Below the pieces are notes generated by a model, which saw only the letters and a program-made list of their open reading frames with translations, had not been told where the DNA came from and ran no database searches. 26,061 nucleotides of DNA, taken from positions 1 to 26,061 of IMG/VR virus record IMGVR_UViG_3300007346_000190; one strand, written 5' to 3'. The translations under genes and the position numbers were made by a program. The stretch comes from a virus. Shown here piece by piece: positions 2,513-26,061 of the stretch (the first letter of the stretch is position 1; every line of letters starts with the position of its first letter).

Positions 2513-3499
2513 ATGCGATATCTAATAGTTGACACTGCTAATACATTTTTCCGTGCCCGGCATGCGGCACATAGACAGGCTGATACTTGGGACCGACTGG
2601 GTTTTGCCATACACGTTACACTGGGTAGCGTTAACAAAGCCTGGCGAGATCAAAAGGCCAATCACGTAGTTTTTTGTTTAGAAGGGCGTAGTTGGCGCAA
2701 AGACTACTACGAACCTTACAAAAAGAACCGTCAGGTTGCTCGTGCTGCCTTAACTGAAGCAGAACAAGAAGAAGATAAACTGTTTTGGGAAACTTTTGAC
2801 ACACTGCAACAGTTCTTGCGTGAACAGACTAACTGTACCGTTCTGCAACACCCTGAACTTGAAGCAGATGATTTGATTGCAGGCTGGATACAAAATCACC
2901 CCAATGATGAGCACATTATTGTGTCCTCAGATTCGGACTTTCATCAACTGCTAAATACTAATGTCAAACAATACAATGGCATAGCAGACGAATTGCATAC
3001 CATAGAGGGAATATTCGATAAACGGGGCAAACTTGTAATAGACAAGAAGACCAAAGAACCTAAAAAAATTCCAGACCCAAGTTGGATCTTATTTGAAAAA
3101 TGTATGCGCGGTGATCCCACAGATAACATATTCAGTGCCTATCCAGGTGTACGCACCAAAGGTAGCAGGAATAAGGTTGGCTTACAGGAAGCATACGAAG
3201 ATAGAAGTCACAAAGGCTTTAACTGGAATAACCTAATGCTACAACGTTGGGTTGATCATAATGGTGATGAACATCGTGTATTAGATGACTATGAGCGTAA
3301 TCGTGTGTTGGTAGACTTAACTGCACAACCGGATGCAGTAAAAGTAAAAATTAATGAAACAATTAAAACAATGGCTGTACCAAAAACTGTAAGTATGGTA
3401 GGTGCTAAGTTTCTTAAGTTTTGTGGCAAGTACGAACTTAACAGGTTAAGCGAACATGCTACCAGTTTCAGCGACTTTTTAAGTGCGGAGTATCAATGA
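2513..3499 (+). CDS. 5'-3' exonuclease / flap nuclease (FEN, RNase H-like phage family)
   Basis: A 328-residue PIN-type nuclease of the FEN/5'-3' exonuclease family, comparable in role to T4 RNase H (rnh) and T5 exonuclease: removal of RNA primers and 5' flaps during phage DNA replication. Metal-binding acidic residues are visible in order: D7 in YLIVDTAN, the LEADD motif at 116-120, the SSDSD motif at 138-142 and GDPTDN at 200-205. The basic FCLEGRSWRKDYYEPYKK region (54-71) is the expected arch/DNA-contact segment, and a helix-hairpin-helix-like PGVRTKG segment follows the last acidic motif. Length and motif order fit a complete enzyme. It has its own consensus promoter with almost no leader. 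Confidence 0.9.
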   Translation: MRYLIVDTANTFFRARHAAHRQADTWDRLGFAIHVTLGSVNKAWRDQKANHVVFCLEGRSWRKDYYEPYKKNRQVARAALTEAEQEEDKLFWETFDTLQQFLREQTNCTVLQHPELEADDLIAGWIQNHPNDEHIIVSSDSDFHQLLNTNVKQYNGIADELHTIEGIFDKRGKLVIDKKTKEPKKIPDPSWILFEKCMRGDPTDNIFSAYPGVRTKGSRNKVGLQEAYEDRSHKGFNWNNLMLQRWVDHNGDEHRVLDDYERNRVLVDLTAQPDAVKVKINETIKTMAVPKTVSMVGAKFLKFCGKYELNRLSEHATSFSDFLSAEYQ

Positions 3500-3651
3500 C
3501 ATTTAGACAATGGCTTCACGAGATGTGGTTAGAAAACTGCGAAGAGCGTGGTGCTTGGCACATGGACACACATACAGTTCAACAATATTTTCAACAGTAC
3601 AAATGGTGGTTACGTAGAGAGTATAGATATCAACAAGGACAACAACAATGA
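3496..3651 (+). CDS. Small conserved marine T4-like phage protein (51 aa)
   Basis: ATGA overlap with the exonuclease stop opens a 51-codon frame starting MTFRQWLHEMWLENCEERG, with a KWWLRREYRY segment and a Gln-rich tail. The TGA overlaps the next ATG in the same way. I recall near-identical openings (MTFREWLHEMW) in cyanophage and pelagiphage genomes. Highly aromatic and charged; function unknown. Conserved motif plus double coupling make this a confident small gene. Confidence 0.75.
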   Translation: MTFRQWLHEMWLENCEERGAWHMDTHTVQQYFQQYKWWLRREYRYQQGQQQ

Positions 3652-4121
3652 CAGTGTTTGCAAAACCAGTATTAAAAAATAAATTTTGGATAGTAGAAAA
3701 CCAAGGCGAAAAAGTTGCCACTATTCAAATGGTGGACGATGGTAGTGTAGTTTATGTAAGTTCGACAGAACGTAAGAAGTACGCCAGCATTAAACTATTG
3801 AGTAAAGATTACAACATCGTATTTGACAAAGAAAATAAAAAATCCAAAGACGTAAAAACAGAACATGAACTATACGGGTATCCTGTTAACGGTAAACCGT
3901 GGAATAGTTTGTACGATATAAAACATCAATTTCCAATTTATACTAAGACCAGCAAAAGTAAAAGTTACTATTGTGCAGGTCATTATATTATTAAATTTAA
4001 TAATGGCTGGGTCAAAAGTTTTTGTCCTAAGTTTATTACACTTAATAGGTATGAGTATCAAGGACCTTTTAAAACAAAACTGGAAATGCAGGAACAGTTA
4101 AGGTTAGCAAATGGAAAGTAA
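3648..4121 (+). CDS. Conserved marine T4-like phage protein (157 aa)
   Basis: Starts at ATG 3648 in an ATGA overlap. The 157-residue protein has an N-terminal beta-rich half (FWIVENQGEKVATIQ, then GSVVYVSS) and a strongly patterned second half: HELYGYPVNGKPWNSLYDIK, FPIYTKTSKSKSYYCAG, YYIIKFNNGWVKSFCPKF-like segments and GPFKTKLEMQEQL. The second half matches what I remember of a conserved cyanophage myovirus hypothetical. Two cysteines sit in SYYCAG and SFCPKF. No known activity. It overlaps the next gene by 11 bases. Confidence 0.75.
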   Translation: MTVFAKPVLKNKFWIVENQGEKVATIQMVDDGSVVYVSSTERKKYASIKLLSKDYNIVFDKENKKSKDVKTEHELYGYPVNGKPWNSLYDIKHQFPIYTKTSKSKSYYCAGHYIIKFNNGWVKSFCPKFITLNRYEYQGPFKTKLEMQEQLRLANGK

Positions 4122-4329
4122 CTTGCCATTACACATTAAAAAGTTTAACGACAAAGTTAAACTGATGAACCAAACTAACAAACAAAATTTAACATTGAAT
4201 GCCAATGAAGCACGTAGTTTGCATAATGAAATTTACGAACTACTTGCTTATTGCACCAAACTAAGCAAAACTGTAATGGATAGTGGAGAAACTAGTACCA
4301 ATGTGCGTATGGACGGTGGCAATTGGTAA
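4111..4329 (+). CDS. Conserved small phage protein, helical (72 aa)
   Basis: ATG 4111 lies inside the end of the previous gene. The 72-residue product is largely helical, with HIKKFNDKVKLMNQTNKQNL, LNANEARSLHNEIYELLAYC and a Gly-rich acidic tail. The LxANEARxLHxEI pattern resembles small helical proteins next to this position in marine T4-like phages. Function unknown. A putative late promoter follows, so this gene closes the first coupled chain. Confidence 0.65.
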   Translation: MESNLPLHIKKFNDKVKLMNQTNKQNLTLNANEARSLHNEIYELLAYCTKLSKTVMDSGETSTNVRMDGGNW

Positions 4330-4347
4330 AAACTACGCACATTTAAA

Positions 4348-4355
4348 GATAAATA
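4348..4355 (+). promoter_or_regulatory. T4-type late-promoter-like box (GATAAATA)
   Basis: GATAAATA differs from the T4 late consensus TATAAATA at one base. A start about six bases later (4361-4362) would give a leader of about 12 bases before ATG 4374 containing AGAGAA as a weak ribosome site. This is pattern matching only; no sigma factor or start site is shown. Confidence 0.4.
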
Positions 4356-4373
4356 ATATACTAGAGAACTTCA

Positions 4374-4661
4374 ATGAGTAGACCCAAACCTAATGTACTA
4401 ATCGAGTATGTCAACAAACAAAACTATAAAACTGAGCAAGTACTCAGTAGTGAAGGTATTTGGGCTGTGTTTTACGAAAACAAACCTATTAATTTAAAGT
4501 CCGGTAACATGCTGGTCAGTTATCCAGGTCCTAAGTATAAAAAGACTTCTTTTAGTAATCCCGGACACGCAATCAACTTGGCTAAAAAATTGAACACGCT
4601 TTTTAAAACTGACCAATTCACTGTGGTGCTTTTAAAAAGTGGTGACCAAATCTTCCCCTAA
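4374..4661 (+). CDS. Conserved marine T4-like phage protein (95 aa)
   Basis: A 95-residue protein starting MSRPKPNVLIEYVNKQNYKT. Recognisable conserved blocks are IWAVFYENKPINL, LVSYPGPKYKKTSFSNPGHA and NLAKKLNTLFKTDQFTVVLL. I recall this SYPGPKYKKxSFSNxGHA block from cyanophage myoviruses, always of unknown function. It may have its own late-type promoter at 4348 and overlaps the following gene by 23 bases. Confidence 0.75.
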   Translation: MSRPKPNVLIEYVNKQNYKTEQVLSSEGIWAVFYENKPINLKSGNMLVSYPGPKYKKTSFSNPGHAINLAKKLNTLFKTDQFTVVLLKSGDQIFP

Positions 4662-5022
4662 AAGGTATACACAAAGACAGTTAACCGAAGTGTTTCTAGC
4701 TTCGTCGAATATACCTGTTCAACAACTAAGCACATGGCAACGCCGTATCTGGTTTAATCCTGTAGATAATGAAAGTCTCAGATTAAACTTAGTAGGTTAT
4801 CAATTTTTAATGGACAATGTTAAACTAAAAGGTTACGAGTATAAATTAAAATCGCCGTTGTCCAGTAAAAACCTCATTCAACTTGAACGATACTTTCAAG
4901 GTCCTTACTACTTGTTTCAAAATAAAAAAATAATTGTGTTTGACGAAACAGAAGCAAGTATGTTATCATTAATGGACGGCGATCTAAGAAGTTATTTGGA
5001 AAACTTAGAAATCAATACATGA
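4639..5022 (+). CDS. Conserved marine T4-like phage protein (127 aa)
   Basis: Starts at GTG 4639 (or the adjacent GTG 4642); an in-frame TAA lies just upstream and no ATG is available before the conserved part. The 127 residues contain KRYTQRQLTEVFLASSNIPV, LSTWQRRIWFNPVDNESLRL, LVGYQFLMDNVKLKGYEYKL and GPYYLFQNKKIIVFDETEAS. This is a pattern I associate with a conserved cyanophage/pelagiphage hypothetical. The stop overlaps the mini-TctB start (ATGA), so the transporter cassette is translationally coupled to this phage gene. Confidence 0.75.
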   Translation: MVTKSSPKRYTQRQLTEVFLASSNIPVQQLSTWQRRIWFNPVDNESLRLNLVGYQFLMDNVKLKGYEYKLKSPLSSKNLIQLERYFQGPYYLFQNKKIIVFDETEASMLSLMDGDLRSYLENLEINT

Positions 5023-5192
5023 AAAAAATTATTACCAGTTTACTGTTTTGTAGCATTGGTGCCTATTTTAGCATCGGCGCAGCTATATTTTACAAAATTG
5101 GCTCGTTGTCTAAAATGGGCCCAGGATTTTTTCCGTTGGCTTTGGGATTATTTTTAATATTATTAGGGGTACTTAACGGAGTCAAGAAATGA
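5019..5192 (+). CDS. tctB: Minimal TctB-like small membrane subunit
   Basis: A 57-residue ORF with ATGA overlaps at both ends, directly before tctA. It has two hydrophobic helices (about residues 4-25 and 38-53) and, between them, IGSLSKMGPGFFPLALG, the hallmark of TctB small subunits of tripartite tricarboxylate transporters. Family members as I know them are about 140-170 residues with four membrane segments, so only the first two helices are here. The frame is not broken: it ends exactly on the tctA start, so this is a compact form and not a truncation by frameshift. It would sit in the inner membrane with TctA. Position supports the call strongly; whether a half-size TctB works is unknown. 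Confidence 0.72.
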   Translation: MKKIITSLLFCSIGAYFSIGAAIFYKIGSLSKMGPGFFPLALGLFLILLGVLNGVKK

Positions 5193-6673
5193 TAGACAAT
5201 CTTTTGCTCGGATTTCAAACAGTATTTGAAATTAATAATTTATTGTTTCTAATTGCAGGTTGTTTGTTAGGCACTGCTATTGGTATTCTACCGGGTATCG
5301 GTACTGTAATTTGTTTAAGTATTCTTTTACCCTTTACCTACGGTTTTGATCCTATTACTAGTATTATTCTTATGGCAGGAATCTACTATGGAGCACAATA
5401 TGGAGGATCCAATACTAGTATCTTGCTTAATGTGCCAGGAGAACCCAGTACAGTAATGACTTGTATAGATGGGTATCCAATGGCACAACAAGGCAGGGCC
5501 AGCGAAGCAATTATCTCAGCAGGCATAGGCAGTTTTGTTGCTGGTATCTTTGCAGTATTTGCCATTGCCTTTGCCGCTCCAGCACTAAGTGACATTGCTT
5601 TTGAGTTCGGACCAACAGAGTTTGCCAGTTTAATGTTATTGGGTATAATAAGCATTAGTGTAATTACTAGTGAAAACCTTGTGACAGGTTTGGGCATGGC
5701 CTGTATTGGCATGCTATTAGGAACTGTTGGCACAGACATAAATTCTGCCACAGAAAGATTCACACTTAATCAACTTGAACTAGTAGATGGCATTACTGTT
5801 GGAGCGTTAGTTATTGGTGTGTTAGGATTGCCGGCCTTAGTAACGCATTTATTAGACAAAAACTTAGAAAATAAACCCATGGAGTTTAAACTCAGATTTA
5901 GTTTCCAGGATTTAAAACGAGTTATCCCTAGTATACTAAGAGGTACAGGAGTAGGAACAGTAATGGGTGTGATTCCGGGTGGTGGTGCAGTTATGAGTGC
6001 TTTCGCCGCTTATGTAGTAGAGAAAAAAGTAAGTAAAAACAAACAAGATTTTGGAAAGGGCGCAATAGAAGGAGTTGCGGCCCCGGAAAGTGCCAATAAT
6101 GCTGCTAGTCAAACAAGCCTAATTCCATTGCTGACTTTGGGAATTCCTGAAAATCCAGTTATGGCGTTGATACTGTCTTCGCTGATTATAAATGGCGTCC
6201 AACCTGGTCCCGGGACCGTTACAGAGTATCCTGAATTATTTTGGGGATTACTAGCAAGTATGCTTCTAGGCAATATGTTTTTGTTATTTCTAAACATACC
6301 ATTTGTAAAAATGTGGATGAAGATTATAAGTTATCCAAAATCTATTTTATATCCTTTATTAATTTCCATAGCATTAGTTGGAGTCTATTTTATCAAAGAG
6401 AGTTGGTTTGATGTAGGCACTGCTATATTTTTTACTTTGTTGGGTATTGTTTTTATATTCTGTAAGTTAGAGTCAGCGCCTTTAATCTTTGGATATATTA
6501 TAGGACCTTTATTTGAAGAAAACCTAAGGCGAACACTAACGATTTCAGATGGCAGTTTTATGAAATTTTTAGAAAGCAATATAAGTTTGTTCTTTTTGTC
6601 AATTAGTGTAATCTTTATACTTTGGAGTTTTGTCAGAAAATTTAATTACTTACATCGACAGTTGACTAAATAA
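5189..6673 (+). CDS. tctA: TctA-family large membrane subunit of a tripartite tricarboxylate transporter
   Basis: A full-length 494-residue TctA, the multi-spanning inner-membrane subunit of the TctABC secondary transporter (family substrates are citrate and other carboxylates). Hallmarks are GILPGIG (32-38), YYGAQYGGSNTSILLNVPG (66-84), VIPGGGA (261-267), APESANNAAS (298-307) and LTLGIP (315-320). About ten to twelve hydrophobic segments are visible. It is translationally coupled to the mini-TctB by an ATGA overlap. Codon use is A+T rich and similar to the flanking phage genes, so it does not look freshly acquired. Both Gly-rich loops expected for the two half-transporters are intact, so it is probably functional. 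Substrate cannot be read from the sequence. Confidence 0.92.
   Translation: MIDNLLLGFQTVFEINNLLFLIAGCLLGTAIGILPGIGTVICLSILLPFTYGFDPITSIILMAGIYYGAQYGGSNTSILLNVPGEPSTVMTCIDGYPMAQQGRASEAIISAGIGSFVAGIFAVFAIAFAAPALSDIAFEFGPTEFASLMLLGIISISVITSENLVTGLGMACIGMLLGTVGTDINSATERFTLNQLELVDGITVGALVIGVLGLPALVTHLLDKNLENKPMEFKLRFSFQDLKRVIPSILRGTGVGTVMGVIPGGGAVMSAFAAYVVEKKVSKNKQDFGKGAIEGVAAPESANNAASQTSLIPLLTLGIPENPVMALILSSLIINGVQPGPGTVTEYPELFWGLLASMLLGNMFLLFLNIPFVKMWMKIISYPKSILYPLLISIALVGVYFIKESWFDVGTAIFFTLLGIVFIFCKLESAPLIFGYIIGPLFEENLRRTLTISDGSFMKFLESNISLFFLSISVIFILWSFVRKFNYLHRQLTK
6665..6672 (+). promoter_or_regulatory. Late-promoter-like box (ACTAAATA) at the end of tctA
   Basis: ACTAAATA overlaps the tctA stop codon. 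A start about six bases downstream would fall near 6678, just before the first hairpin of the structured intergenic region. It matches the TAAATA core seen at three other places in the window. Weak evidence by itself. Confidence 0.3.
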
Positions 6674-6685
6674 TTCTAGCAACGC

Positions 6686-6785
6686 CACAATGATGTGACG
6701 TCGGAACAATCAATCGACGCTTAGAGTAGCAAAACTCTTTTACTGTTGTGTTACAACAGAACGCCGTCCGTAAGCGAATTCTCGC
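6686..6785 (+). ncRNA. Candidate structured RNA between tctA and tctC
   Basis: Five short inverted repeats follow one another with almost no gap: CACA/TGTG (6686-6697, loop ATGA), CGTCG/CGACG (6699-6719), AGAGT/ACTCT (6723-6738), CTGTTGT/ACAACAG (6743-6759, three-base loop) and GCGA/TCGC (6774-6785, loop ATTC). No T-run follows any of them, so they are not ordinary terminators. No reading frame of interest covers the stretch. It could be an attenuator or mRNA-stability element between tctA and tctC, or an independent small RNA. No known RNA family was recognised. Confidence 0.4.
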
Positions 6786-6804
6786 AAGCATTAAACCAAA
6801 ACTA

Positions 6805-6834
6805 TTGACAATGTTTTATACAAAAAAGTATAAT
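6805..6834 (+). promoter_or_regulatory. Strong sigma-70-like promoter of tctC
   Basis: TTGACA (6805-6810), an 18-base spacer and a perfect TATAAT (6829-6834). The expected start is near 6841, where an ATG opens a seven-codon mini-frame (MTLLRRN) that ends in TAATG on the tctC start. The tctC ribosome site is ACGGAG at 6852-6857, inside this mini-frame. So tctC can be expressed separately from tctBA, which fits the usual excess of binding protein over membrane subunits. Confidence 0.75.
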
Positions 6835-6863
6835 TTGTCTATGACTTTATTACGGAGAAATTA

Positions 6864-7781
6864 ATGAAATTTAAATCAATCTTATTAACAGGTGCGCTAA
6901 CACTTGGCACTATTAATTTTTCTTACGCACAACAACTTGAAGCCTTCCTCACACACGGTGGTGGACTTCTAGATCGAATCTGTCGAAAAATGTTTAGTGA
7001 GTATGAACAAAAATTCAACGAAACAGTTAAAATCAATGTTAAAACCGGTGCTGATGGAATTTTGGCTGCTAGGGAAATGAGCAATAACTCTAGTAAAACT
7101 AAAGTTCTTTGCCATGGTAGTAGTGTATGGGTACAAAACCGTTTTGTACACAAAGACAAAGATATCGGTGTAAGCGACAAATCAATTCTTGTTAAGTACA
7201 GCGATGAACCAACACTATGGTATGTACCCAACAGTGTTAAAGGAGTTAATTCCTGGGATACACTGATGTCTTACCTAAGGAGTTTTGACCGGCCAATTAA
7301 AGTAGGCGGCTTTACTGGTGTACACCGTGCCCAAATTGCATGGTTGGCAAAAGAATACAATTTGAACTTAGTTGTTGTTCCTTTCAAGAAAGGCCCAGAA
7401 ATTTTGCCAGCACTTTCAAAAGGTGATTTGGACTTGGCGCTAGATCCAGGCGTAGGTTACAAAGCAGCCAAAGCAGGCAAATTTCAAATTGTAGGCTACA
7501 ACATGATCAAGCAAAACAGCATTCTTAAAGATAAGCCAAACTTTGATTCAGTTAATCAAAATATGAAAACATTTGGTCTATGGCTAGGACTTACTGTGAA
7601 TGCAGATATGGATCCTGCTTACAAAGCCAAACTAGCAGATCGTATGAAATCTATTATTACCACTGATAGTTTCAAAGAATTTGCAGAGGTTGCTTTTGCT
7701 CCTGTAGATTGGACTCCAGGTGCAGATGCAGAAGTGTTTATTAACAAGCAAATCAAAGATACCGAAAAACTATTGAAGTAA
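6864..7781 (+). CDS. tctC: TctC-family periplasmic solute-binding protein
   Basis: A 305-residue extracytoplasmic receptor of the TctC/Bug type. It begins with a clear Sec signal peptide: basic MKFK, a hydrophobic core, then NFSYA followed by QQ, with likely cleavage after A22. The mature part has HGGGLLDRICRKMFSEY (the GGxxDxxxR element of domain 1), INVKTGADGILAAREM, GFTGVHRAQIAWLA and VVPFKKGPEILPALSKGDLD, matching the ligand-handling loops of the family. Export to the periplasm implies a Gram-negative host. It has its own strong promoter and a GGAG ribosome site. Next to tctBA it completes a three-part uptake system. The bound solute is not predictable by eye. Confidence 0.85.
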   Translation: MKFKSILLTGALTLGTINFSYAQQLEAFLTHGGGLLDRICRKMFSEYEQKFNETVKINVKTGADGILAAREMSNNSSKTKVLCHGSSVWVQNRFVHKDKDIGVSDKSILVKYSDEPTLWYVPNSVKGVNSWDTLMSYLRSFDRPIKVGGFTGVHRAQIAWLAKEYNLNLVVVPFKKGPEILPALSKGDLDLALDPGVGYKAAKAGKFQIVGYNMIKQNSILKDKPNFDSVNQNMKTFGLWLGLTVNADMDPAYKAKLADRMKSIITTDSFKEFAEVAFAPVDWTPGADAEVFINKQIKDTEKLLK

Positions 7782-7792
7782 AGAGGTAAAAC

Positions 7793-8932
7793 ATGCTTTA
7801 TTCTCCTTCCTCAATGAGACTAGGCTACTATCAAGTCGGCGACAAAATTCATTTGAATAAGGTTGCTGCCTTAATAGATGGTACAGAAAGAAACATACAC
7901 CCTGAATGGGTCTTCAACAATGATGTTTTCGATAAATTTTCTTGGTCTGAAGAGCCAGAGGAGAGTCTCAGTGAATTGTATTCGCAAAGAGCAAAGGAGA
8001 TAAGGCAAACTTACGATTATGTAATACTTGCTTTTAGTGGTGGTTCTGACAGTCACAATATACTAAATGCATTTATAAAAAATAATCTGAAAATCGACGA
8101 AATCGTAGTCTCATGGGCAGTAAAACTTTCAGAAGTACGAGGTACTGATCCATGGGACTATAAAGATGTCAATCAATTGTCTGAATGGGAATTAACTGTA
8201 AAACCCAAACTACAGTGGATGAGACAAAATCATCCCGAAACTAAAATTACTGTTTATGATTGGACTGATGGATACAGCAATTATAAAATAGATGATGATT
8301 TTAGTTTGCATAGAGGAACAAACCTAGCGTATTTTGCTGACAAAAGATGGAGTATAGATAATATATCTTCAATCGAAAAACGTATCAGTACAATGCAAAA
8401 TAGTATTATCATCTGGGGTATATGTAAACCAAGAGTATGTTTACAGGACAATACTTACAAATTGTATTTCTTAGATCAAGTTGGTTTTGCAACAACTTCG
8501 GAACTTAACAATGAAAGAACAGAATATTTTTATTGGCATCCCAGTAGTGCAAGAATGATTGCAAAGCAGTGCCATTTAATTGTAAGGTTTTTTGAAGAAA
8601 ATCCAATGTTCAAACAATTTATACGGTGGCCGCAAACACCAAGAGCCAGGGAGTTCTACGAAAATTGTATTAGAGCAATAATTTATCCAGAAGTAGATCT
8701 TAACTTTTTCCAAGGATCTAAATGGAGCAATTTTAATTTTGCGTGGGATCTAGCGCTCATGGATCTTGATCCAGCAATGAATGACAAACTTAATTATCAT
8801 TTCTTTGAAACAATGCAAGGGTTGCATTCTGTAATTGAAAACAAATATTTTCAAACAGTAGCAGAAGGGGAAAAACTGACAGGATTTATCGCAGGAATGT
8901 ACCCTATCGCAAAAGAATCAATAACATCCTAA
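7793..8932 (+). CDS. PP-loop ATP pyrophosphatase-like protein
   Basis: A 379-residue protein 11 bases after tctC, with an AGAGG ribosome site, so probably on the tctC transcript. Residues 76-87 read YVILAFSGGSDS, a P-loop of the adenine nucleotide alpha-hydrolase (PP-loop) type used by asparagine synthetases, tRNA-lysidine synthases and QueC to adenylate a substrate. A Trp-rich N-terminal region precedes it. The C-terminal half (about 255-330), with WHPSSARMIAKQCHLIVRFF and FFQGSKWSNFNFAWD, is unlike the ones I know. No glutaminase Cys at residue 2 and no QueC-type zinc cysteines are seen, so it is neither a standard AsnB nor QueC. It may activate a carboxylate; linking this to the Tct substrate is inference. 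Confidence 0.72.
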   Translation: MLYSPSSMRLGYYQVGDKIHLNKVAALIDGTERNIHPEWVFNNDVFDKFSWSEEPEESLSELYSQRAKEIRQTYDYVILAFSGGSDSHNILNAFIKNNLKIDEIVVSWAVKLSEVRGTDPWDYKDVNQLSEWELTVKPKLQWMRQNHPETKITVYDWTDGYSNYKIDDDFSLHRGTNLAYFADKRWSIDNISSIEKRISTMQNSIIIWGICKPRVCLQDNTYKLYFLDQVGFATTSELNNERTEYFYWHPSSARMIAKQCHLIVRFFEENPMFKQFIRWPQTPRAREFYENCIRAIIYPEVDLNFFQGSKWSNFNFAWDLALMDLDPAMNDKLNYHFFETMQGLHSVIENKYFQTVAEGEKLTGFIAGMYPIAKESITS

Positions 8933-8940
8933 AAAAATAA

Positions 8941-8950
8941 TACTTTAGTA
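8941..8950 (+). promoter_or_regulatory. TACTTTAGTA box upstream of a promoter
   Basis: A near-palindrome (TACT, central TT, AGTA) ending four bases before the -35 at 8955. The same core, or its complement TACTAAAGTA, recurs with the same four-base gap at 9268-9277 and 11502-11511. It is a candidate activator or operator site shared by this gene block. Confidence 0.55.
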
Positions 8951-8954
8951 GTAC

Positions 8955-8983
8955 TTGCAGAATATTCCGTTTTTTGCTACAAT
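8955..8983 (+). promoter_or_regulatory. Sigma-70-like promoter of the 9014 gene
   Basis: TTGCAG (8955-8960), a 17-base spacer, TACAAT (8978-8983), with TGC just before the -10 (extended -10 style). An AAGGAG ribosome site at 9002-9007 precedes ATG 9014. Confidence 0.7.
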
Positions 8984-9013
8984 TATGGCATCAGTTAAGA
9001 AAAGGAGTAATAA

Positions 9014-9253
9014 ATGCAAAGCACAGAAATTCGAGAGTATCGGGGTAAATTTTACGATGGTCGTCACGGTGGCCCATTCGACCGTGGTAGCGCCGATAGT
9101 TGGTACAGCCGTCCACGTCGCCCACACTTTTTCACAGATGCCACTTATCAAAGTGACGAGATCGAAGAGCGTTTTATGACCAAGGATCAGATAGCCGAAT
9201 ACAATGCGGGCTATGACTGGAACGAAGACTTGGGCGGCAAGAAAGAATGGTAG
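9014..9253 (+). CDS. Conserved phage protein (79 aa)
   Basis: A 79-residue protein with an excellent ribosome site (AAGGAG, six-base spacing) and its own promoter. Conserved-looking blocks are GKFYDGRHGGPFDRGSADSW, YSRPRRPHFF and MTKDQIAEYNAGYDWNEDLG, ending GGKKEW. I recall the GSPFDRGSADSxY and EYxAGYDxNE blocks in marine phage hypotheticals. It is acidic at the C-terminus and aromatic throughout, with no membrane segment. Function is unknown. The strong promoter and ribosome site suggest high early expression. Confidence 0.78.
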   Translation: MQSTEIREYRGKFYDGRHGGPFDRGSADSWYSRPRRPHFFTDATYQSDEIEERFMTKDQIAEYNAGYDWNEDLGGKKEW

Positions 9254-9280
9254 TACTAAAGTATTACTACTAAAGTAGTA
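9254..9280 (+). promoter_or_regulatory. Double TACTAAAGTA box upstream of a promoter
   Basis: Two copies of TACTAAAGTA, at 9254-9263 and 9268-9277, 14 bases apart. The second is embedded in a longer palindrome TACTACT-AA-AGTAGTA (9265-9280). Its core ends four bases before the -35 at 9282, the same spacing as at 8941 and 11502. The stop codon of the previous gene lies at its left edge. Confidence 0.6.
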
Positions 9281-9281
9281 C

Positions 9282-9310
9282 TTGCTCGAAATTCGTCATT
9301 TTGCTATAAT
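9282..9310 (+). promoter_or_regulatory. Sigma-70-like promoter of the 9341 gene
   Basis: TTGCTC (9282-9287), a 17-base spacer, perfect TATAAT (9305-9310) with TGC before it. The ribosome site GGAG at 9331-9334 precedes ATG 9341. Confidence 0.72.
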
Positions 9311-9340
9311 ATAGGCATAGTGTAAGAAAAGGAGTTTGAA

Positions 9341-9610
9341 ATGCGTACACCTACTTTTATCGGCGGCTTCAAAAACAGCCAACGTATTCGTGTTATTGTC
9401 GATGGTGTTGGTTTTTACACCACGGTAGCTGGCACTGCCGATATCTGCACTGACATGCATGCGACAGCAACCCAGATGGCTCTTATGAATTTGGCACAAG
9501 AACGTCGTCATGCAAAACGTCGGGGCGACAAAGAAATGCCTGTTGGTTTTGGCTTTAATTATAACGGCGTGGATGGTAGCATTACGCCTGTTCAAGTTGA
9601 CTTGGTTTAA
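9341..9610 (+). CDS. Small phage protein (89 aa)
   Basis: An 89-residue protein starting MRTPTFIGGFKNSQRIRVIV with its own promoter and GGAG ribosome site. It has a beta-rich start (RIRVIVDGVGFYTTVAGT), a basic helix (MNLAQERRHAKRRGDKEM) and a second beta region (VGFGFNYNGVDGS ending VQVDLV). No family is recognised, though this arrangement recalls small early proteins of marine phages. A basic helix could bind nucleic acid, which is inference only. The TAA is followed directly by the AAGGAG site of the next gene, so the two are co-transcribed. Confidence 0.72.
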   Translation: MRTPTFIGGFKNSQRIRVIVDGVGFYTTVAGTADICTDMHATATQMALMNLAQERRHAKRRGDKEMPVGFGFNYNGVDGSITPVQVDLV

Positions 9611-9621
9611 GGAGAACTAAA

Positions 9622-9900
9622 ATGGTTTCAATTAACGACATCAATCACTCTATCATTGCTGGTAACTTTACCAACGAGCAGTTGAACAGTATTTCGATGG
9701 CTATTAAATTTGCTCGTAATCAGTTGGTAAAAGAGAATCGTGGAAGCCTGGTTATAGGCACCAAGGTTAAGTTCACTAGCGGCCGCAATGGTCAGACTTA
9801 TGTTGGTGATGTCACCAAGATTGCTCGTAAGTATGTCACTGTTCGTAGTCCAGGCTATGGCCTATGGCGTGTTCCTGCCAATATGTTGGAGGCTGTATAA
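9622..9900 (+). CDS. Conserved phage protein with an SH3/KOW-like C-terminal half
   Basis: A 92-residue protein preceded by AAGGAG (9609-9614). The N-terminal half is helical (MVSINDINHSIIAGNFTNEQ, then ISMAIKFARNQLVKEN). The C-terminal half is a beta segment (LVIGTKVKFTSGRNGQTYVG, DVTKIARKYVTV and WRVPANMLEAV) that looks like a small SH3/KOW-like barrel. I recall close relatives in cyanophage myoviruses with the same GTKVKF and WRVPANMLE motifs. Function unknown; binding to RNA or to a host polymerase or ribosome would fit the fold guess but is inference. Its stop overlaps the next ATG (TAATG). Confidence 0.75.
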   Translation: MVSINDINHSIIAGNFTNEQLNSISMAIKFARNQLVKENRGSLVIGTKVKFTSGRNGQTYVGDVTKIARKYVTVRSPGYGLWRVPANMLEAV

Positions 9901-10268
9901 TGGGGTTGGATCAATATGCTTACTGCCGTGCTAAGAAAAAAGGCAGTTATGGTGACAGTCGTGAAATTGCCTACTGGCGTAAACACCCCAACCTTCAGGG
10001 TTGGATGGAACAACTCTGGATCAAACGAAATCCTGACTATAATCCAGAAGGCAATAATATGTTCAACGGCGTTGAGTTGGAACTTACCTGGGAGGATCTC
10101 GCTGAACTTGAACGAGCAGTGATCCATGACCAACTACCGCAAACTAAAGGCTTCTTTTTTGGCGAGGACAGTGACGATTACTATAAGCAATCAGTATTAG
10201 AGTTCGTCCGAAATGCCCGGGCAGAACTGTTCTTGGGTTTGAAAGTTTTTTACAATAGTTCGTGGTAG
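9900..10268 (+). CDS. Conserved phage protein, MGLDQYA/WRKHPNLQGW family
   Basis: The start is ATG 9900 in a TAATG overlap, with GGAGG at 9888-9892 as ribosome site; the longer reading from 9864 is rejected. The 122 residues contain MGLDQYAYCRAKK, AYWRKHPNLQGWMEQLW, MFNGVELELTWEDLAELERA and TKGFFFGEDSDDYYKQSVLE, ending FLGLKVFYNSSW. This is a widespread family in phages and some bacteria, in some genomes labelled phosphoglycerate kinase; nothing here resembles that enzyme, so I do not use the name. Soluble and acidic, function unknown. Confidence 0.78.
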   Translation: MGLDQYAYCRAKKKGSYGDSREIAYWRKHPNLQGWMEQLWIKRNPDYNPEGNNMFNGVELELTWEDLAELERAVIHDQLPQTKGFFFGEDSDDYYKQSVLEFVRNARAELFLGLKVFYNSSW

Positions 10269-10283
10269 TGTTGTAAAAAAACT
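10244..10283 (+). repeat. Inverted repeat before the MoxR promoter
   Basis: AGTTTTTTACAA (10244-10255) and TTGTAAAAAAACT (10271-10283) are complementary over 12 pairs with one bulged A, around a 15-base loop. The left arm is in the end of the previous gene and the right arm ends one base before the -35. No T-run follows, so it is not a normal terminator for the plus strand. It may be an operator or an mRNA 3'-end stabiliser. Confidence 0.45.
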
Positions 10284-10284
10284 A

Positions 10285-10313
10285 CAGACAATAATTCCGA
10301 AAAGTCATATAAT
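10285..10313 (+). promoter_or_regulatory. Sigma-70-like promoter of the MoxR gene
   Basis: CAGACA (10285-10290), a 17-base spacer beginning ATAATTCCGAAA, and TATAAT (10308-10313). The spacer closely resembles that of the 11516 promoter (ATAATTCAGAAA). AAGGAG at 10327-10332 precedes ATG 10339. Confidence 0.7.
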
Positions 10314-10338
10314 ATAGATATGTTGAAAGGAGTATTTT

Positions 10339-11445
10339 ATGACAGTAAGTGAACACCGTACCGTAACGACCCAGCAGGCGTCACGGCTCATCTCTAAGTG
10401 CTTCCAGAAGAAGCGCCCTGTATTCCTATGGGGTCCTCCAGGAATTGGCAAAAGTGAAGTGGTTGCCAGTATCGCCGAAGAGCAAAATGGTCTGATGATT
10501 GACCTGCGTTTGGCGCAAATGGAGCCCACCGACCTGCGTGGTATCCCTTACTACAATAAAGACAGTGGTTTGATGGATTGGGCACCGCCCATCGACTTGC
10601 CCGACGAAGAGTTGGCCAGTCAGTATCCTGTGGTTGTTTTGTTCTTGGACGAGATGAACTCAGCGGCTCCCAGCATTCAGGCTGCGGCTTATCAGTTGAT
10701 TCTTAACCGCCGCATTGGCAAGTATAAACTGCCTGACAATGTGGTAGTGATTGCGGCTGGTAACCGTGAATCGGACAAGGGTGTTACTTATCGTATGCCT
10801 GCTCCGTTGGCTAACCGCTTCCTGCACTTGGAGATGCGAGTAGATCACCAAGCATGGGAGACGTGGGCTACCATTAACCGCATCCACAAAGACGTGGTCG
10901 GTTACATTGGCTTTGCCAAGCAGGACCTTTACGACTTTGATCCGCGTAGTAGCAGTCGTAGTTTTGCTACACCTCGCTCGTGGACCTTTGTTAGCGAAAT
11001 CCTTGAAGACGAGGACGTTGGTGAAGCAGATCTCACTGACTTGGTAACAGGTGCAGTTGGTGAGGGTGTGGCTGTTAAGTTTATGGCTCACCGCAAGATT
11101 GCTGGACAGTTACCCAAGCCTGAAGATGTATTGGCTGGTAAGGTCAAAGAACTCAAAGTAAAAGAAGTCAGCGCCATGTACAGTTTGGTAGTCAGTATGT
11201 GCTACGAACTTAAGGATGCCGCAGACAAGATTGGTGGCAAGCCTAATGCAGAATGGCATGAGATGGCAGATAACTTCTTCCGTTATATGATGGACAATTT
11301 CACAACGGAGTTGACTGTTATGGGTGCTCGTACTGCTCTTACCACTTACAACCTGCCGTTTGTTCCTGGCAAACTCAAGAATTTCGATGAGTTCCACAAG
11401 CGGTTTGGTAAGTACATTGTAGCCGCAAGCGCCGGCAATCGATAG
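10339..11445 (+). CDS. MoxR/CobS-type AAA+ ATPase
   Basis: A 368-residue AAA+ ATPase. Walker A is GPPGIGKS (32-39), Walker B is VVLFLDEMN (99-107), the sensor-1 region is VIAAGNRESD (136-145), and PAPLANRF (154-161) carries the expected arginine finger. This is the MoxR/CobS group; cyanophage versions are often labelled CobS, but no cobalamin genes are here. MoxR ATPases usually act as chaperones with a VWA partner, and the next gene encodes one, so they are likely a functional pair remodelling a protein complex. It has its own promoter and AAGGAG ribosome site. Codon use is more G+C rich than the Tct genes, fitting strong expression or a different origin. Confidence 0.87.
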   Translation: MTVSEHRTVTTQQASRLISKCFQKKRPVFLWGPPGIGKSEVVASIAEEQNGLMIDLRLAQMEPTDLRGIPYYNKDSGLMDWAPPIDLPDEELASQYPVVVLFLDEMNSAAPSIQAAAYQLILNRRIGKYKLPDNVVVIAAGNRESDKGVTYRMPAPLANRFLHLEMRVDHQAWETWATINRIHKDVVGYIGFAKQDLYDFDPRSSSRSFATPRSWTFVSEILEDEDVGEADLTDLVTGAVGEGVAVKFMAHRKIAGQLPKPEDVLAGKVKELKVKEVSAMYSLVVSMCYELKDAADKIGGKPNAEWHEMADNFFRYMMDNFTTELTVMGARTALTTYNLPFVPGKLKNFDEFHKRFGKYIVAASAGNR

Positions 11446-14923: not shown

Positions 14924-15426
14924 TTAAAGCAATATTTGCCGTCGACACCTGGGGTGGCATGGGATTCCGAGGTAGCCTCCCATGGCCGCACCACAGTGAA
15001 GACATGCAGTATTTTAAAAAGCAAACAGAAGGACATGTTGTAGTAATGGGCAGACGTACATACGATGATCCTAAAATGCCTAAGCCTTTGAAAAATCGAA
15101 TAACGTATGTAGCAACCAATCGTCCACTTTATACTGCCGGCACAGTCAAGGGTAATTTAGTCGAGCAAGTTCCGTTACTGCAAAAACGTCATCCCAATAA
15201 GCACATTTGGATAATCGGTGGTCCTGAGATTATCCTCTCCTGTAAAGACATTATTGACGAAATGCACGTTACTCATTTCAAAAGTCAATTCAAAAGTGAT
15301 GTCAAAATAGACATGCGTAAGATGACTTTGATGATGCGAGCAATGGGTGCTTGGCCCAGTCAAGACGGAAAATGTACTTGGACTGTTTACAAAAACGTTG
15401 ACATTTTCAGGCCCTTGTCAGTATAA
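14920..15426 (+). CDS. folA: Dihydrofolate reductase
   Basis: A 168-residue DHFR reducing dihydrofolate with NADPH, which regenerates the folate used by the thymidylate synthase encoded next. Visible motifs are [19 protein letters not shown] (4-22, the substrate/cofactor loop), the acidic ED at 27-28 in the position of the catalytic acid, [10 protein letters not shown] (41-50) with the NADPH-binding Arg/Thr, and WIIGGPEI (97-104). The [10 protein letters not shown] loop replaces the common GxIGxxxxLPW. Length is normal. ATGA overlap with the previous gene; the end of this gene contains the thyA promoter. Confidence 0.9.
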
Positions 15427-15427
15427 T
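15398..15427 (+). promoter_or_regulatory. Consensus sigma-70 promoter of thyA
   Basis: Perfect TTGACA (15398-15403), 18-base spacer, perfect TATAAT (15422-15427), inside the end of the DHFR gene. ATG 15434 is six bases after the -10 and there is no ribosome site between, so the message would be leaderless, as at the exonuclease gene. Confidence 0.7.
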
Positions 15428-23903: not shown

Positions 23904-24960
23904 AACCTGGTTTCATCATATCTATTTGCATTTGATTATAACTAAGATCTGACCAACAGTAATCAAATGTTTGTTCTACGTCATTAACGACGATTTTATA
24001 AATGTCTAAATGATTACCGAGTATATCCCATATATCGTTATAATCTGTAGATCCAAAACTTTGTTTTAAATTTACTTGTGCGATAGGCAAATATCCTAAA
24101 CTTAGTTTTGGGTCATCAGGATCTCGGTTATTATCTGTTAACCATTTTTTAAAGTTGTCTTGTTCTTGATTGTGCCACAATTGTTCGCCTCCATAAACTA
24201 CATTGTTACCCCATTCAACATCAAACTCACCGCTATAATACTTTAACTCGGTGATTGCTTCACAAACAGTATCTGTAAGTTCAGGTGCATGCTCATCTCT
24301 GAAAACTTCAAACAGTGTTTTACCTATCTGTGTCCAGTGCATGTATACTCCGCCTAACACTCTATCATAACCATTCACTAAAAACAATTCTCTATGTATG
24401 TCTTTAAGATCGTACCTGGGTGCTTGTAACCATGTAGTAATTTGACTAGGCCTGACCCAATAAGGAACGGTATTGAATTTTCGCTGGCTTAAAATCAATG
24501 TTTCCATTTCGTGACAAATATTGTTTAACTGTCTAATTGCATATTTTGTTTCATAGTCTGCACGTTTATAATAATCACTTAAATTCCAGACAGTTCCTTG
24601 CAATACTTCGAAATGATTGTGTAACCGATTCATCATGTCATGATTTATACCGTTTTCGGCATAATCGTATCCAACAACATTATCTGGCGTAAAAAACTCT
24701 TCAATTTGATAAGATGGAAAGTGCTTATTAATAGTTTTACAATGTTGATTTAACTCGTTACAAAGATAATCCAAGGTCCTTGCAGTTTTAGGAAAACCCA
24801 TAAAACAAAAATTTTTTTCTAATAAAAGATTTTTATGTAGCAATTCTTTTAATGCTGGAATCCAATCTTGTGCTAATGCATTGTCGAACACTTCTATAGT
24901 GTAGTCAACTTGATCTTGATAATTTAACGGATTGCGTAATACTACTTTAACAGTCTTCAA
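23881..24960 (-). CDS. Conserved marine phage protein of unknown function (359 aa)
   Basis: A 359-residue soluble protein with no recognised catalytic motif. It has KNFCFMGFPKTARTLDYLCN (49-68), a helical middle (NRLHNHFEVLQGTVWNLSDY, then YETKYAIRQLNNICHEMETL) and a second half with LFLVNGYDRVLGGVYMHWTQ, EWGNNVVYGG and FKKWLTDNNRDPDDPKLSLG, LPIAQVNL. I recall cyanophage proteins with the FMGFPxxxRxLxYLCxELN start. It sits between the radical SAM gene (14-base overlap) and an SGNH gene, so it probably shares their pathway. Confidence 0.7.
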   Translation of the reverse strand: MKTVKVVLRNPLNYQDQVDYTIEVFDNALAQDWIPALKELLHKNLLLEKNFCFMGFPKTARTLDYLCNELNQHCKTINKHFPSYQIEEFFTPDNVVGYDYAENGINHDMMNRLHNHFEVLQGTVWNLSDYYKRADYETKYAIRQLNNICHEMETLILSQRKFNTVPYWVRPSQITTWLQAPRYDLKDIHRELFLVNGYDRVLGGVYMHWTQIGKTLFEVFRDEHAPELTDTVCEAITELKYYSGEFDVEWGNNVVYGGEQLWHNQEQDNFKKWLTDNNRDPDDPKLSLGYLPIAQVNLKQSFGSTDYNDIWDILGNHLDIYKIVVNDVEQTFDYCWSDLSYNQMQIDMMKPGYDYSSRR

Positions 24961-26061
24961 TTGTCATCCACCATTTGAGCGCTTCAGGACGTAGACTGAT
25001 AATGTCAGTAAACGTTGTTTTTTGATCTCTTATTTGCTCTAACCTTAGTATGCGGTGCTTGCCACGACTAATACCCTCACGATATTCATCAGGCCATTGC
25101 TCTTGAAAAGTTGGTCTAGTTTTAAGTTGGATTAATGTGTCCCGCAAGGCGCCTCTAACTTGGGGTACTAGTTCGTCTATCCAAGGATGTAATATGTCCT
25201 TGGGCAGTGCTAACGGCGACATCACTATGTCGGGACTAAAACTAAACACAACTTTTGACAGCACATCAACACCTAACTTGTCTGCCAGTTGTTGAATATT
25301 TACTATTTCAAACAGGCCTGGCAGTGTTAATGTGAAGTCTAATCTCATTTGCCTTTTGTGACGTTGGATTTCAACTCCTGCACGAAAGTTTTCAAGCCAT
25401 TGGTTATAGTTAAGACCTGTTCTAATATATTCTCCAATGACTCCAGTTCCGTCGATGCTCGCGCAGATCTGCCAATCGCGAATCCTAGGAAGAATATCAC
25501 TAAACAGATCAACATTCCGGTAGCGGCGCCGGCTAAGATTAGTATTATATCTGGCATATAGTTTGTCACCATCCCCTAACTCTATTATTCTCTGCATATA
25601 ACGCCAGTGCTGTTCATACATCAAAGGCTCTCCACCCACCCAGTAGACTTCTTCTACTCTGTGTTCCTCAACTGCCTGACTAAATTCTTGTTCGATTTTG
25701 GTATCTTGAAACTGCTCAATCTGCTGCTTGACTTCAGGTCGCATCCAATTATTCTTTGGATTGGTGTAGTCGATCATGTTATGTTGGCGTTGCTCACTTT
25801 CCCAAGCACTGCTTAACATGTCCCCACACATACGACACTTGAAGTTACAGAGATTGCTAAACCTATAGTCCCAACTAACAGGCTTCATTGTGGTATAACC
25901 CGACTCGTCAGTTGTGTCCAGTATGTCGTTGTACTTATTGCCAAAAAGGTTGTTGAAATAACTGCGGTAAACGTCTGTGTTTAACAGCTTGTCGTTACAG
26001 ACTTCGCACTCGGGCAGTGTTTCTCCTGCCATCATACGACGACGGACACTACGCATATGTT
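24947..26061 (-). CDS. Twitch-type radical SAM protein, N-terminus missing
   Basis: The frame runs off the right edge; ATG 26056 is only the first Met visible and the true start is probably upstream. Counting from that Met: CEVC (17-20) may be an auxiliary cluster motif, CNFKCRMC (70-77) is the radical SAM CxxxCxxC, and YWVGGEPLMYEQH (138-150) is the GGEP SAM-binding segment. IDGTGVIGEYIRTGLNYNQW is typical of the TIM-barrel part. The C-terminus is short. I recall such twitch-domain radical SAM proteins in cyanophages without assigned substrate. It heads the minus-strand operon as far as seen; a carbon or peptide modification is likely, the substrate unknown. Confidence 0.85.
   Translation of the reverse strand, partial: HMRSVRRRMMAGETLPECEVCNDKLLNTDVYRSYFNNLFGNKYNDILDTTDESGYTTMKPVSWDYRFSNLCNFKCRMCGDMLSSAWESEQRQHNMIDYTNPKNNWMRPEVKQQIEQFQDTKIEQEFSQAVEEHRVEEVYWVGGEPLMYEQHWRYMQRIIELGDGDKLYARYNTNLSRRRYRNVDLFSDILPRIRDWQICASIDGTGVIGEYIRTGLNYNQWLENFRAGVEIQRHKRQMRLDFTLTLPGLFEIVNIQQLADKLGVDVLSKVVFSFSPDIVMSPLALPKDILHPWIDELVPQVRGALRDTLIQLKTRPTFQEQWPDEYREGISRGKHRILRLEQIRDQKTTFTDIISLRPEALKWWMTIEDC

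Follow-up and report, generated by a model that had tools for sequence, protein, structure and literature searches.

The window analysed here, a stretch of 26,061 bases from a viral record, contains a gene cassette of the tripartite tricarboxylate transporter (TTT) family flanked by the phage genes ORF127 and ORF379. The three genes are arranged in the order B-A-C and encode a short TctB-like protein (mini-TctB), a TctA permease and a TctC receptor (Table 1). ATGA overlaps join ORF127 to the mini-TctB gene and the latter to tctA. With these overlaps and phage genes on both sides, the TTT genes are integrated in the phage gene order, in agreement with the first-pass annotation. Its description of the cassette as complete needs qualifying because the TctB gene spans only profile positions 3-47 of 137; only the N-terminal half of TctB is encoded, so this is no standard complete TTT. 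Homologues of ORF379 were also found beside TctC genes in the otherwise unlike phages L201, L205, L213, L276 and L292. A function for ORF379 could not be taken from its predicted model, which was of low confidence (pLDDT 57) and resembled LarE and GMP synthetase in the PP-loop core only.

Table 1. Features of the transporter cassette and its surroundings in the window
Feature	Coordinates	Strand	Evidence and remarks
ORF127	4639..5022	+	Conserved phage gene; left border of cargo; G1158 and G1161, both sister phages, have homologues in this position
mini-TctB, 57 aa	5019..5192	+	GPGFFP loop with a predicted helix on either side; Pfam TctB 25.1 bits
TctA permease, 494 aa	5189..6673	+	Full-length Pfam TctA match, 467 bits
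TctA motif copy 1 (residues 24-38)	5258..5302	+	Sequence and alignments; motif from PMC5812351
TctA motif copy 2 (residues 252-266)	5942..5986	+	Sequence and alignments; motif from PMC5812351
tctA-tctC intergenic stretch	6674..6863	+	No Rfam match; ordinary fold
Perfect sigma-70-type promoter TTGACA-N18-TATAAT (predicted)	6805..6834	+	12/12 consensus bases; upstream of tctC
TctC, periplasmic solute-binding receptor, 305 aa	6864..7781	+	Iterated profile; model pLDDT 88; Z 29-33 to Bug/TctC structures
Predicted TctC signal peptide (residues 1-22, ending SYA)	6864..6929	+	Sequence reading, low-confidence model start, alignment
ORF379, PP-loop (SGGSDS) protein	7793..8932	+	Homologues adjoin TctC in several other phages; weak Pfam match
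Cargo stretch, ORF127 to MoxR	5019..10268	+	Missing from the corresponding site of G1158, a sister phage, which has a 71-bp gap there

The TctA product matched Pfam PF01970 with 466.7 bits (cut-off 28.9, E 8e-140) over profile positions 1-422 of 423. It retained 68 of the 72 near-invariant positions, defined as those conserved in at least 97% of 160 bacterial TctAs. The motif G-x3-G-x3-G-x2-P-G-x-G, whose duplication in TctA has been described (PMC5812351), was present in both copies, and the hallmark loops noticed in the first-pass annotation are thus borne out. A sequence search found no solved structure of TctA or TctB.

TctC scored 26.7 as a protein against Pfam PF03401 (cut-off 27.0) and 28.6 in a six-frame search of a 76-kb contig of the same phage population. 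The matches of TctC and mini-TctB were just below the Pfam cut-offs and other evidence was therefore needed. An iterated profile search starting from the window TctC gathered TctCs adjoining both bacterial and phage TctA. A model predicted from 43 sequences (mean pLDDT 88) had its best solved matches in Bug27, the R. palustris oxoadipate receptor, terephthalate receptors, BugD and MatC (Z 29.0-32.8), while the next structural class was well below these (Z 16.7). Judged by its predicted fold, TctC is a divergent but genuine Bug/TctC receptor. A substrate could not be taken from the closest structures: the Bug27, oxoadipate, terephthalate, BugD and malate receptors were almost equally close, and therefore no ligand can be named. 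The signal peptide claimed earlier was recovered as a prediction from sequence reading, with a basic start, a hydrophobic core and SYA; the model had a low-confidence start and its alignment to mature receptors began at residue 22.

A perfect sigma-70-type consensus, TTGACA-N18-TATAAT, was located directly upstream of tctC. Four such sites were observed in the 76-kb contig compared with 0.08 expected. Since tctC lies behind its own consensus promoter, it need not belong to the upstream co-transcript. The ATGA coupling to the preceding phage gene noticed in the first-pass annotation holds. If the receptor is required in excess, a strong promoter of its own would be fitting. The thymidylate synthase gene has a second perfect site (15398-15427) immediately before its likely ATG, and this phage may therefore use consensus promoters to mark certain metabolic genes. 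No structured RNA was detected between tctA and tctC by Rfam, and the folding of this stretch was not unusual (z -1.35).

The same cassette was detected on four further IMG/VR contigs of 7.5-76 kb with 99.6-99.96% DNA identity. The whole window was colinear with the 76-kb contig, with 12 mismatches in 26,061 bases, and that contig continued into virion-type genes in an order common to an 81-kb sister phage. Because five assemblies of one population agreed and the 76-kb contig was colinear and carried virion genes, a chimera or contamination was ruled out, and the cassette is real and well beyond what chance would give. The phage context was also evident from the exonuclease family, the relatives among large phages and the virion genes common to the sister phage. 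The closest GenBank phages by the exonuclease and VWA genes were the PA5oct-type Pseudomonas phages (about 287 kb), Sinorhizobium phage Phosso (469 kb) and Agrobacterium phage Atu_ph07 (490 kb). The surrounding genes had been called T4-like, and T4-type genes are indeed present; by the genes tested, however, the phage is closest to these very large phages and is better described as their relative with T4-type genes. A run of related genes with a radical-SAM-type CxxxCxxC motif is present at 24947-26056 of the window and goes on in the 76-kb contig (L015-L018); about eight homologues stand one after another in the sister phage G1158.

Two alignment-based scans detected TctA in dozens of viral contigs, one of them 315,778 bases long; contigs with TctA at the very edge (L005-L009, L253, L254, L262, L271 and L282) were treated as bacterial. 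Several TctA contigs had clear viral genes, such as those for tail sheath and terminase, T4-type DNA polymerase and baseplate or head proteins. The cassette of the window is one case of a recurrent trait. TctC-type genes were identified in 23 of 36 TctA-bearing viral records tested, a count that includes some near-copies of one population, and in 12 of the 13 records of at least 60 kb. Phages therefore generally carry receptor and permease together. No PHROGs family matched TctA or TctC, and tblastn with TctC against GenBank phages gave no match. TctA matches among GenBank phages were only 29-44% identical and belonged to unannotated or bacterial-type records.

Other uptake-related genes were observed on some of these contigs. 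The only long TctA contig where TctC was not found, the 182-kb L028, encodes a TonB-plug-domain protein (9823-11433; Pfam Plug 48.6 bits) about 2.3 kb from its TctB-TctA pair. Contigs L036 (2553-7455) and L037 (2571-7455) carry a distant TctA, about 30% identical to that of the window, together with a TctC-profile receptor, a TonB-dependent outer-membrane receptor of 737-740 aa and a small membrane protein; in L037 the run is followed by tail-like genes. By its gene content, this run resembles a phage-borne uptake route leading from the outer to the inner membrane. The 316-kb record L269, which has mini-TctB and TctA, contains genes reading like PstS (5805-6809) and peroxiredoxin (8693-9226) within 4 kb. 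In L021, a gene reading like a tryptophan halogenase (3020-4546) directly precedes mini-TctB and TctA.

The larger TctA tree comprised 24 phage and 46 other rows, the bacterial rows being the matches listed in one scan plus samples of Burkholderiales, Alphaproteobacteria and Gammaproteobacteria. The window TctA fell within an all-phage clade of 15 lineages (bootstrap 100, SH-aLRT 99), in which it was placed next to L247 (100/97) and then L021 (99/94). The phage copies thus formed a clade, as the first-pass annotation had proposed, among the bacteria sampled; a bacterial relative missing from the sample could break it. A second phage clade of five (100/99) was nested among TctAs of aquatic Burkholderiales (89/99), and L276/L277 and L288 were separate again. 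According to the tree, TctA was gained by these phages in separate events. One common origin for every phage TctA was rejected, the larger tree needing four label changes; in a smaller tree, one phage clade was not rejected (AU p 0.305).

The window and G1158 have in common the order exonuclease, ORF157, ORF95, ORF127 homologue, MoxR and VWA. In G1158, MoxR follows the ORF127 homologue after only 71 bases and the site holds no cassette, while its own tctB-tctA, a TRAP-type receptor and tctC are located about 9-13 kb further on. In G1161 (L026), TctA occupies the same site as in the window but comes from the other TctA clade, and the smaller tree rejected (AU p 0.018) the sister relationship of the two TctAs expected from the shared gene order. 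From the gap in G1158 and the other-clade TctA in G1161, backbone and transporter would differ in history, and the cassette site may take up cargo repeatedly.

The proteins of TctA and TctC were invariant among the five assemblies, and the sole non-synonymous change in the cassette was A22V in mini-TctB. Because the window population varies too little, selection was measured in the related pair L024/L027, where dN/dS was 0.04-0.05 for TctA, 0.09-0.10 for TctC and 0.17-0.21 for TctB. These ratios point to strong purifying selection on TctA and TctC in this pair, and by extension from these other phages the window cassette may be under similar selection. The reading frames were intact in all copies seen. 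A recent capture of host genes carried without function is already disfavoured and highly improbable: transporter genes are common passengers and the site differs between related phages, but the all-phage clade is long-standing, dN/dS is low in relatives and the frames are intact in the copies seen.

The mini-TctB matched Pfam PF07331 with 25.1 bits (cut-off 29.1) over the profile positions given above. Its 57 residues contain two hydrophobic segments and do not cover the four helices of the whole TctB model, and on its sequence it is classed as TctB-derived and not as TctB. Phage TctBs fell into two size classes, 138-159 aa or 57-67 aa. The short class consists of the N-terminal half, with a helix, a GPGxFP-type loop and a helix; it overlaps the start of TctA and there is therefore no room for the other half. 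Short TctBs were present in seven phage lineages at two separate places on the TctA tree, which would need at least two independent truncations. In bacteria, a TctB adjoining TctA was found at 145 loci, and none of these proteins was shorter than 145 aa. A profile made only from the seven short TctBs was also searched against 379 Burkholderiales and 367 Alphaproteobacteria genomes, with open frames counted from stop to stop; among the about 220 matches listed, none lay in an open frame shorter than 149 aa except one of 124 aa near a contig start.

TctB is a four-helix subunit of unknown function, and the full TctB is essential in one bacterial system (PMC5812351). The half-size TctB was accordingly counted against a working importer. 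The mini-TctB might be a dying remnant beside functional TctA and TctC, with a host TctB borrowed or none needed. The survival of the N-terminal half alone, the A22V change as the only protein change of the population, the lack of an adjacent TctB in L026 and L281 by the model used and the existence of archaeal TctA without TctB (PMC5812351) are all consistent with this. However, seven lineages retain an open frame for this half, complete with the GPGxFP-type loop and the coupling to TctA, and at least two independent truncations ended at the same point, as would not be expected of decay, which makes a remnant rather unlikely. The chances are about even that large aquatic phages maintain a TTT lineage of their own, passed from phage to phage instead of being copied anew from hosts, in which TctB was pared at least twice to a working two-helix core. 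If so, the phage half-TctB would reveal the part of TctB that counts, and its recurrent halving amounts to a natural experiment on a subunit of unknown role (PMC5812351).

Considering the full-length TctA, the fold of TctC, the ATGA couplings, the promoter, the invariance of TctA and TctC among the assemblies, the dN/dS values, the 12 of 13 long contigs and the phage clade, the cassette is likely a phage-borne auxiliary uptake system, namely a TTT importer that works with a reduced TctB. In the infected cell, mini-TctB and TctA would be made by translation coupled to the preceding phage gene and inserted into the inner membrane. TctC would be expressed from a strong promoter of its own that the host polymerase can read, and exported to the periplasm, where it would bind a small organic anion and hand it to TctA for import driven by an ion gradient. 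Expression, export and transport of this kind would be expected to deliver carboxylates or similar substrates and to benefit the phage. Such viruses probably help infected bacteria to take up nutrients, judging from their gene content. An effect on host carbon intake is only what we infer, because the substrate cannot be read from sequence.

A role other than import, such as host signalling, a ligand sink or blocking of a rival phage at the cell surface, appears improbable. TctC-type receptors do join signalling in some bacteria, and some phages place a signal-less TRAP-type receptor beside TctA, but the permease core is conserved and strongly constrained in relatives, and signalling or shielding by TctC only would need neither. 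The TRAP-type receptors in question (L023:7479-8429, L038:2203-3144, L038:9194-10150 and L281:5458-6411; Pfam DctP, about 150 bits) are located beside TctA or TctC and are without any signal peptide; the start overlaps the TctA stop in L281 and follows TctA by two bases in L023. Such a receptor would be expected to stay cytoplasmic beside an importer.

Individual uptake genes are known from viruses and mainly concern phosphate and nitrogen. If an importer with receptor and permease is kept as an all-phage set across many large phages, the uptake that viruses steer in infected aquatic bacteria would extend to carbon or another organic nutrient. Phage pstS and amt are auxiliary metabolic genes raising host nutrient uptake (reviewed in PMC6359870). 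The window cassette resembles them as virus-borne uptake genes, but it has a secondary-transporter permease with a receptor and its substrate is probably an organic anion rather than phosphate or ammonium. TTT-type genes on viral contigs have been mentioned before: tctA in a SUP05 viral contig was a domain hit of unknown role (PMC4164917), which recurs in abbreviated form in a review (PMC6359870), and an island of an OMZ myovirus was noted to hold tricarboxylate-transport genes (PMC8115048). Each of the two original cases is mentioned once, with no receptor, phylogeny, TctB or selection analysis, and no dedicated study of phage TTT genes was found in the literature searched. The entries named "PBP2_Bug_TTT" or "Bordetella uptake protein" of uncultured Caudovirales phage in BFVD (e.g., A0A6J5T247) were named automatically and have the same receptor fold, at 14-19% identity to the window TctC. 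Phage uptake genes and TTT transporters are both known, and the cassette is a variant of each. Compared with the bacterial TTTs (Salmonella TctCBA, Comamonas TpiBA/TphC and Bordetella Bug), the cassette has the same TctA family, receptor fold, clustered genes and duplicated motif, with at most about 50% identity between the window TctA and those of the bacteria sampled. It differs from them in the half-size TctB, the B-A-C order, the separate promoter of tctC and its location in a phage.
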